A stretch of 41,780 bases of DNA from Terriglobales bacterium (GTDB taxonomy: Bacteria; Acidobacteriota; Terriglobia; Terriglobales; Acidobacteriaceae). The position numbers and the translations under genes were made by a program. Where the stretch lies: assembly GCA_035691485.1 (NCBI GenBank), contig DASSIZ010000042.1:1-41780 (forward strand), in the 5' to 3' direction. This document shows positions 24,079 to 26,286 of this stretch, one piece after another (position 1 is the stretch's first letter; each line of letters starts with the position of its first letter). A model generated the notes under the pieces. The model was not told where the DNA came from. It saw nothing but the letters and a program-made list of their open reading frames with translations, and ran no database searches.

Positions 24079-26286
24079 ATGAATCTCTGGCTCATACCGC
24101 TGCTCCCGCTGGCCGGCGCCGTTGTCAACGGCCTGTTCGGACGGCGTTTTTCGAAGAACGTGGTTACGGCGGTCGGGCTGGCGTTTCCCGGGGCGTCCGT
24201 GTTGTGGGCCTGGAAGGTGGCGGCGCAGTTCGCGCAGCTTCCATCCGCCGGCATTCCCCACATCGAGAATTATGGCCCCTGGCTCGGCGCCGGCGATTTC
24301 CTGGTCAGCTACGGCTTCTATCTCGATCAGCTTTCGCTGCTCATGATCCTGATCGTCACCGGCGTCGGCTTCCTGATCCACGTCTATTCCGTCGGCTACA
24401 TGGCCCACGAAGGCGGCTATTACCGCTTTTTCTCCTACCTGAACCTGTTCATGTTTTTCATGCTTACGCTGGTGCTGGCGGACAACTACCTGCTGATGTT
24501 CGTCGGATGGGAAGGCGTGGGACTGGCGTCGTACCTGTTGATCGGCTTCTTCTTCCTGCGCGATTCGGCCGCGTCCGCCGGCAAGAAGGCATTCATCGTA
24601 AACCGCATTGGCGACTTCGGTTTCCTCATCGCCCTTTTCCTGTTGATCAAGAATTTCTCGACGCTCGATTTCACCAGTGTCTTTCAGAGAGTCTCCGGCA
24701 TGCCGCCCGAAGCAACCGCCGGCCTGCTGACCACGATCGGACTATTGCTGCTGGTCGGCGCTTGCGGAAAATCCGCGCAGCTTCCTCTTTATGTCTGGCT
24801 GCCGGACGCCATGGAAGGCCCGACGCCCGTCTCGGCGTTGATTCACGCCGCCACCATGGTTACCGCCGGCGTGTACATGATCGCGCGCTCCCACGTTATC
24901 TTCGACCGCGCCCCCACCGCCCTCACCGTAGTTGCGATCATCGGGGCCGCCACGGCGTTGTTTGCCGCCACCATCGGCACCGTGCAGCACGACATCAAAC
25001 GCGTGCTTGCCTACTCCACCATCTCCCAACTCGGTTACATGGTGCTGGCCTGCGGCGTGGCCGCGTATTCGGCGGGCATGTTCCACCTGATGACGCATGC
25101 CTTCTTCAAGGCGCTGCTCTTCCTGGCCGCCGGTTCCGTGATCCACGCCCTCGGCGGCGAACAGGACATGCGCAAGATGGGCGGCCTGATGCGCGAGATT
25201 CCCGCCACCTTCCTGACGATGACGGTCGCCACCTTCGCTATCGCCGGCATTTTTCCGCTCTCCGGCTTCTTTTCCAAGGATGAAATCCTCTACCGCTCAT
25301 GGGCGAGTCCATTTGGCTCGTGGGGATTCTGGGCGGTTGGACTTTTTTCAGCCTTCTTGACCGCCTTCTACATGTTCCGGCTCTGGTTTCTCACCTTCTT
25401 CGGCGAATTCCGCGGCACACAACAGCCGCCCGCGGCGCAACAGGCGGTGCTTGCCGACGTGGAATTGATTGTCCCCGAGAAGTACCTGGACAAGGTCTAC
25501 AAGGAACTGCAGACCCGTGGCGCGCTGGGTATTGATCCGCTCCATCGCAGTACGACCATGAAGGTCCGGGTCCCCACCTCCAACATGCTGTACTTCGAGG
25601 CGGAAATTCGTTCCATCACCGGAGACAGGGCATCGGTGAATATCCGCTATCCGCAGCGGGAATTCGCCGGGCGGGAGCACCATGCGCACGAGCACACGGT
25701 CCATGAAAGCCCGAAGGTGATGCTGATCCCGCTGGTGGTGCTGGCGGTGCTGTCGTTGGCCGGCGGCTGGATCGGATGGCCGCAGGTACTGGGCGGCAGC
25801 AATCATTTCGAGCACTTCCTGGCCCCCGTGTTCGAGGAGCACGCCACCGCGCCGGAAGCCGCCGCCACCACTCCCACGGAAGGTCACGCGCCGTCGGAGA
25901 TCGCGCTGACCCTGGCCGCCACCGGTGCCGCTCTGCTCGGGATCGCGCTGGCATGGTTCATGTATTACCAGCGCCGCGACCTTCCCGCCAAGCTGCGCCA
26001 GCGCTTCGCCGGCGCCTATGACGCGCTCGAGCACAAGTACTACGTGGACGAAATCTACGACTGGCTTCTGGTGCGGCCCATCATTCAGGGCTCGCGCAAC
26101 GTTTTATGGCGGATGATTGACGCCGGCGCGATCGACGGCACCATTAACGAAACCGCGGAGGCGGCCCGCGATGTCTCCAACGGCTTCCGCCGCATGCAAT
26201 CGGGCAACATTCGCTCTTACGCGGGATGGGTGGCGCTGGGCGGCGCCGCCGTGGTCGCGTACATGGTTTGGCTGGGTGTGAAATGA
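24079..26286 (+). CDS. nuoL: NADH-quinone oxidoreductase subunit L with an EF-G domain V-like insertion
   Basis: 735 residues, antiporter-like proton-pumping subunit. Conserved FVGWEGVGLASYLLIG, GKSAQLPLYVWLPDAMEGPTP (channel Lys), and GFFSKDEIL (second Lys) are all present, as are the C-terminal lateral-helix region and final membrane helix. Unusual: between the helix ending FYMFRLWFLTFFGEFRG and the next (HESPKVMLIPLVVLA), residues about 455-532 form a soluble domain (VELIVPEKYLDKVYKELQTR, VPTSNM, EIRSITGDRASVNIRY). It resembles the C-terminal ferredoxin-like domain of elongation factor G. NuoL of cluster 2 has no such insert. No ribosome site precedes the ATG. Confidence 0.93.
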   Translation: MNLWLIPLLPLAGAVVNGLFGRRFSKNVVTAVGLAFPGASVLWAWKVAAQFAQLPSAGIPHIENYGPWLGAGDFLVSYGFYLDQLSLLMILIVTGVGFLIHVYSVGYMAHEGGYYRFFSYLNLFMFFMLTLVLADNYLLMFVGWEGVGLASYLLIGFFFLRDSAASAGKKAFIVNRIGDFGFLIALFLLIKNFSTLDFTSVFQRVSGMPPEATAGLLTTIGLLLLVGACGKSAQLPLYVWLPDAMEGPTPVSALIHAATMVTAGVYMIARSHVIFDRAPTALTVVAIIGAATALFAATIGTVQHDIKRVLAYSTISQLGYMVLACGVAAYSAGMFHLMTHAFFKALLFLAAGSVIHALGGEQDMRKMGGLMREIPATFLTMTVATFAIAGIFPLSGFFSKDEILYRSWASPFGSWGFWAVGLFSAFLTAFYMFRLWFLTFFGEFRGTQQPPAAQQAVLADVELIVPEKYLDKVYKELQTRGALGIDPLHRSTTMKVRVPTSNMLYFEAEIRSITGDRASVNIRYPQREFAGREHHAHEHTVHESPKVMLIPLVVLAVLSLAGGWIGWPQVLGGSNHFEHFLAPVFEEHATAPEAAATTPTEGHAPSEIALTLAATGAALLGIALAWFMYYQRRDLPAKLRQRFAGAYDALEHKYYVDEIYDWLLVRPIIQGSRNVLWRMIDAGAIDGTINETAEAARDVSNGFRRMQSGNIRSYAGWVALGGAAVVAYMVWLGVK

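Follow-up and report, generated by a model that had tools for sequence, protein, structure and literature searches.

An elongation factor G domain V-like insert in the NuoL subunit of an acidobacterial complex I

The NuoL subunit of the first complex I cluster in the DNA we have analyzed contains an additional domain which, according to sequence comparisons, is homologous to domain V of elongation factor G (EF-G). The window, that is, the whole stretch of DNA analyzed, comprises 41,780 nucleotides from a Terriglobales bacterium. We infer that an EF-G domain V was captured by NuoL and would now form a dispensable accessory surface on the distal membrane arm of complex I, a reading to which we assign a probability of about 0.55. 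Both NuoL and the EFG_C domain are already known. No description of a NuoL carrying an EF-G domain was found in the literature searched, most subscription papers lying outside this search.

The nuoL gene is found at positions 24,079–26,286 (plus strand) and codes for an intact protein of 735 amino acids. It scores 748.6 bits with NCBIfam model NF005141, whose cut-off is 556, and 733.6 bits with TIGR01974. A Pfam scan of the whole protein finds Proton_antipo_M, Proton_antipo_N, Proton_antipo_C and EFG_C, nothing else: Neither the GTPase domain of EF-G nor its domains II–IV are present. The NuoL motifs GWEGVG, GKSAQ, DIKR and SKDEIL are present, starting at residues 143, 230, 305 and 396. We take these motifs to match Lys399/Asp400 and the ion-pair residues of characterized NuoL proteins. 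The roles of Lys399/Asp400 and of the ion pairs are described in PMC13144422. Since the channel motifs are present, the NuoL pump is probably working in spite of its insert.

This gene is part of a complex I operon (15,546–29,218, plus strand), in which Pfam matches identify the 30 kDa, 49 kDa and 51 kDa (NuoF) subunits, a NuoG-type subunit, NADHdh (NuoH) and two further antiporter-type subunits. Another pair of genes, one NuoL-type and one NuoM-type, is found at 35,569–39,572 on the minus strand, in the opposite orientation to the first cluster, so that a second membrane module of the complex I type seems to be present in this genome. The second NuoL (37,386–39,572, minus strand) has no EFG_C match at E ≤ 0.001, as expected from the earlier note, which described it as lacking the insert.

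The insert occupies residues 455–532 (25,441–25,674, plus strand, as all positions in this paragraph) of the first NuoL; the EFG_C match found by hmmscan and in the whole-genome search covers its core, residues 460–523 (25,456–25,647). A hydropathy scan places it between two hydrophobic segments which we take to be TM13 and TM14, the numbering being assumed from NuoL homology. The first one includes residues 411–442 (25,309–25,404) and ends in FYMFRLWFLTFFGE; the second one includes residues 546–566 (25,714–25,776), KVMLIPLVVLAVLSLAGGWIG. The loop between them, as delimited by loop comparison, corresponds to residues 443–545 (25,405–25,713). The order of the EFG_C motifs, the length of about 75 residues and the location just before HESPKVMLIPL, all of them pointed out in the earlier note, hold. 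In acidobacterial NuoL proteins which have no insert (L029–L054, L057–L072, L116, L128 and L133) the TM13–TM14 linker is short, variable and often rich in histidine.

The extra block is real. The excised insert matches the Pfam family EFG_C (PF00679) with an E-value of 3.2e-9 and 37.1 bits, above the cut-off of 27.9, and no other Pfam family reaches E ≤ 10. In the context of the whole protein the same match has an E-value of 2.1e-7 and 31.3 bits, and covers positions 8–74 of the 89 in the profile. The best NCBIfam models for the excised insert are those of elongation factor G (E-values 1.1e-6 and 1.1e-5), with scores far below the cut-offs, which are set for whole proteins. A search of PDB sequences has Thermus EF-G as its top match (1jqs, E 0.0022). 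The insert is also found in the NuoL of five further genomes of the same family. All five match EFG_C above the cut-off, with 31.2–46.6 bits when excised and 30.0–45.1 bits in the genome search. Since these five genomes all have the insert in frame and in the corresponding loop, an error of assembly or of reading frame is most improbable.

As a control for chance matches, a hidden Markov model was built from six acidobacterial EF-G domains V, and each insert was compared with 2000 shuffled sequences and with its reversed copy. The six inserts score 32.9–54.6 bits with this model; the best shuffled sequences only reach 5.9–11.1 bits and the reversed copies 2.1 bits at most. A profile–profile comparison of the inserts with EF-G using hhalign gives a probability of 98.8 and an E-value of 5.5e-17.

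We have also carried out the reverse search, using a profile built from the six inserts alone, without any EF-G sequence, on 396 genomes of the phylum. Matches at E ≤ 1e-9 are found in 366 of these genomes. We fetched 27 loci other than NuoL, and an EF-G-type tail is present in all 26 that were inspected. EF-G proteins score 38–58 bits; the only matches above 63 bits in the phylum sample are the NuoL inserts of three genomes, G265, G121 and G000 (the genome of the window). TypA is matched with only 12–14 bits in five of seven loci; the other two have no match at E ≤ 0.01, and none of five confirmed LepA loci is matched. A tree comprising the inserts, EF-G and TypA, but not LepA, places the inserts on the EF-G side with a support of 100/100. 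When PF00679 is used to search eight genomes, the matches outside NuoL are translation factors: The ten proteins which were checked correspond to EF-G (2), TypA (3) and LepA (5). The genome of the window has two EF-G genes of its own, as well as TypA and LepA. Homology of the insert to EF-G domain V is therefore supported by sequence profiles in both directions, by hhalign and by the shuffled controls, and this part of the claim made in the earlier note stands.

The fold has been studied with AlphaFold2. The model of the insert without an alignment is poor (mean pLDDT 58.9), and a Foldseek search with it finds nothing at E ≤ 0.001; this model is evidence neither for nor against an EF-G fold. 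A chance or convergent likeness of an unrelated loop to EFG_C would agree with such a result, but it is hardly credible in view of the six matches above the cut-off, the reverse search, the shuffled sequences and the profile–profile match. A second set of models was guided by an alignment with three EF-G tails, 19–26% identical to the insert, which had been taken from IMG/VR contigs. The best of them has a mean pLDDT of 79.4 (the other four 49.5–57.0) and a beta-alpha-beta-beta-alpha-beta arrangement: strands at positions 4–10, 29–33, 39–45 and 65–69, helices at 13–25 and 46–60. Foldseek ranks 1–9 for this model are all EF-G by description. The guided model is compatible with a ferredoxin-like fold for the insert, with EF-G as the nearest solved structure, as the earlier note would predict, but it is partly circular and not independent of the EF-G assignment, because it is built on EF-G rows.

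VIA-align gives similar scores to several proteins: EF-G (Z 11.1), TetM (10.7), SBDS (10.5), LepA and PstA (both 10.3) are tied within tolerance. SBDS, TetM, LepA and PstA are all within one Z unit of EF-G, but the sequence favors EF-G as the identity of the insert. The PstA structures (4d3g and 4wk3), which we take to be PII-like, suggest another possibility, namely that NuoL is gated by the domain upon binding of a small ligand, in the manner of PII-like proteins. We consider this very unlikely: EFG_C is alone among Pfam families at E ≤ 10, EF-G is matched by both sequence and fold, and a common fold does not prove a common function. Three IMG/VR contigs classified as viral (L216, L217 and L218, with 20, 359 and 296 kb) contain an EF-G gene each. 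They are either large phages with an EF-G or misfiled bacterial DNA.

The insert is present in very few genomes. The family set includes 398 genomes, 374 of them with a NuoL match at E ≤ 1e-100; this set and those used for the order and the phylum are samples of larger groups. The insert is found in six genomes (G000, G121, G409, G265, G520 and G400), which belong to four of the 79 genera in the family sample, and in all of them it lies in the TM13–TM14 loop of NuoL. In the order sample, the same six of 328 genomes match the insert profile at E ≤ 1e-18. In the phylum sample, three of 396 genomes have a score with this profile above that of EF-G. When the insert and its flanks were used to scan named genomes, none of the NuoL frames in the 80 loci among the matches listed resembled the insert or EF-G domain V at E ≤ 1, six of these frames being partial. 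Two named acidobacterial records (L103 and L118) have the same NuoL sequences as G483 and G458, and G321 adjoins a record of Acidobacteriaceae (L124); judging from these sequences, the carrier family is Acidobacteriaceae-like.

In the genus of the window, two of the four genomes, G000 and G121, carry the insert, while the other two, G073 and G396, lack it. The NuoL of the latter is 89–90% identical ahead of the insert site. Their DNA keeps both linkers, and the domain is cleanly absent; each of these genomes has four PF00679 matches in a whole-genome search, none of them in NuoL.

The history of the insert was studied with NuoL trees from which the loop had been left out. Carriers do not form a single clade, a possibility which is rejected with a p-AU of 1.6e-62, and at least five changes of carrier state are needed. 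G121 groups with G073 and G396 (support 95), although a pair formed by G000 and G121 remains acceptable (p-AU 0.064). On the other hand, a branch separates the six inserts from EF-G and TypA, with a support of 91/95 which is below the star level of the tool and is obtained where long branches meet. The splits among the six inserts agree with the NuoL tree. We infer that the domain was captured once, long ago, and was then lost repeatedly, perhaps with exchange through recombination: Since carriers do not form a clade, a single capture requires many losses or exchange between lineages. Separate captures of the domain in different lineages would also be compatible with these trees.

Synonymous changes add some information. 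Between G000 and G121 (L026), 11 of 16 four-fold sites differ in the insert and 112 of 324 in the NuoL body (0.69 vs 0.35, p 0.008), which hints at import or recombination of the insert in this pair. The corresponding values for G265 and G520, 12 of 28 and 127 of 324 (p 0.69), show no such excess.

Purifying selection acts on the insert in two close pairs. Omega values, calculated according to Nei and Gojobori with bootstrap ranges, are 0.28 (0.12–0.54) for G000–G121 and 0.27 (0.13–0.55) for G265–G520; those of the NuoL body are 0.12 and 0.15. Purifying selection, for which the earlier note proposed a check, is found in these pairs; a more distant comparison, G000–G409, gives 0.67 (0.36–1.22), which does not differ from 1. 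Divergence is much faster in the insert than in the rest of the protein: Identity between G000 and G121 is 49%, as compared with 89% for the NuoL body, and other inserts are only 18–47% identical to that of the window. Its scattered distribution, its lack in close congeners and this rapid divergence suggest that the domain is an accessory which the enzyme can dispense with, and not one of its core parts. The regulatory or assembly role on the proton-pumping arm which had been suggested in the earlier note is hypothetical.

The main alternative is that the domain is a mere passenger, captured in a tolerant loop, which has no use, is lost repeatedly and is only selected against misfolding. It is the main rival because a domain without any use, if only its misfolding were harmful, would also be under purifying selection and show an identical omega, which limits the support for an accessory role. 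We regard this alternative as less likely than that role. In relatives this loop varies and is frequently rich in histidine, at least five changes of state have taken place on the NuoL tree, the absence in congeners is clean, and the insert evolves at a faster rate than the body. Nevertheless, omega is about 0.27 in two pairs and EFG_C is still recognizable in inserts which are only 18–47% identical; a useless domain of 75 residues would be expected to decay or vanish in most lineages over such a time.

A more detailed picture is obtained from individual residues. Eleven positions of the domain are invariant in 34 EF-G rows (Thermus numbering). Among the six inserts, P613 and R627 are kept in all six, P648 and M652 in five, R666 in four (with a basic residue in all six), G629 and V647 in three and S661 in one; R628, E651 and M671 are lost in all of them. 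The helix glycines G618 and G622, present in 32 and 33 of the 34 EF-G rows, are not found in any insert. In this alignment, much of the fold signature is kept and part of the EF-G signature is lost.

These residues are relevant to a different proposal. Domain V of EF-G contacts the large ribosomal subunit, and the insert could bind the region of the EF-G site, tethering NuoL synthesis or complex I to ribosomes. The origin of the domain, its probable cytoplasmic location, the conservation of R627 and the presence of R or K at position 666 in all six inserts would agree with such docking, but R628, E651, M671, G618 and G622 are absent from all six and S661 is kept only once, and we consider it unlikely. 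Somewhat less likely still is a related idea, in which the domain V tethered to NuoL would serve in the cytoplasm as an anchor or a sensor, joining complex I to the translation machinery through a ribosomal or EF-G partner; respiration or NuoL insertion would then track the state of translation in these acidobacteria.

The location of the insert may be deduced from the positive-inside rule and from NuoL homology. The loop which follows TM14 (14–15) has no K/R and six D/E; seven K/R are found in the segment following TM15. Charge makes only a modest case, because the linkers flanking the insert have three K/R and five D/E, not counting the insert itself. The insert probably faces the cytoplasm, according to the charge pattern and NuoL homology. 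TM12b is located at the periplasmic half-channel according to PMC13144422.

In the reading we prefer, that of a captured accessory surface, a copy of EF-G domain V would have entered the TM13–TM14 loop of NuoL in frame, in an ancestor within one Acidobacteriaceae-like family. The captured domain would fold autonomously as a ferredoxin-like unit and would protrude into the cytoplasm from the distal end of the membrane arm of complex I, on the side of the lateral helix. Most residues which mark the fold would have been kept and several residues universal in the sampled EF-G proteins would have been lost, leaving the proton-channel motifs of NuoL intact. Its role would be that of a packing or protein-binding module, contributing to the stability or assembly of complex I; it would take part neither in translation nor in pumping.

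Among known systems, the insert shares the sequence profile, the motif order and, in the guided model, the fold with EF-G domain V (PF00679; Thermus EF-G, 1dar and 1jqs). Unlike EF-G, it is found inside a membrane protein, without a GTPase or any other EF-G domain, and R628, E651, G618 and G622 are missing in all six cases. The NuoL body and its channel motifs are common to NuoL/ND5 proteins (E. coli 3rko, Paracoccus-type 8qby, Thermus 4he8). In the alignments with the bacterial-type structures 8qby, 6hum and 4he8, there is almost nothing between the TM13 side and the HESP-like motif, unlike the NuoL proteins which carry the insert.

A different case is chloroplast NdhF, the plant relative of NuoL. 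Comparison of 9grx_F and 7eu3_F with positions 25,267–25,860 of the window reveals a long stretch in the same loop: The aligned blocks are separated by about 84 residues in 9grx and by more than 40 in 7eu3. The TM13–TM14 loop therefore accepts extensions in other lineages. No likeness of this NdhF stretch to EF-G is reported, and the parts of the query matched by NdhF are not those matched by EF-G chains. A folded domain from a translation GTPase in a distal pump subunit would show that this loop is able to take whole domains, and would be an example of an EF-G domain outside any translation factor. The presence of the insert in G000 and G121 and its absence in G073 and G396 provide natural pairs within one genus, in which the effect of extra mass on the distal arm may be compared. 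Another lineage-specific insertion in complex I is the G-loop of E. coli NuoG, with 94 residues, which packs against its neighbors; it is found in the peripheral arm, and the passages of PMC8357420 considered here do not describe it as a translation-factor domain.
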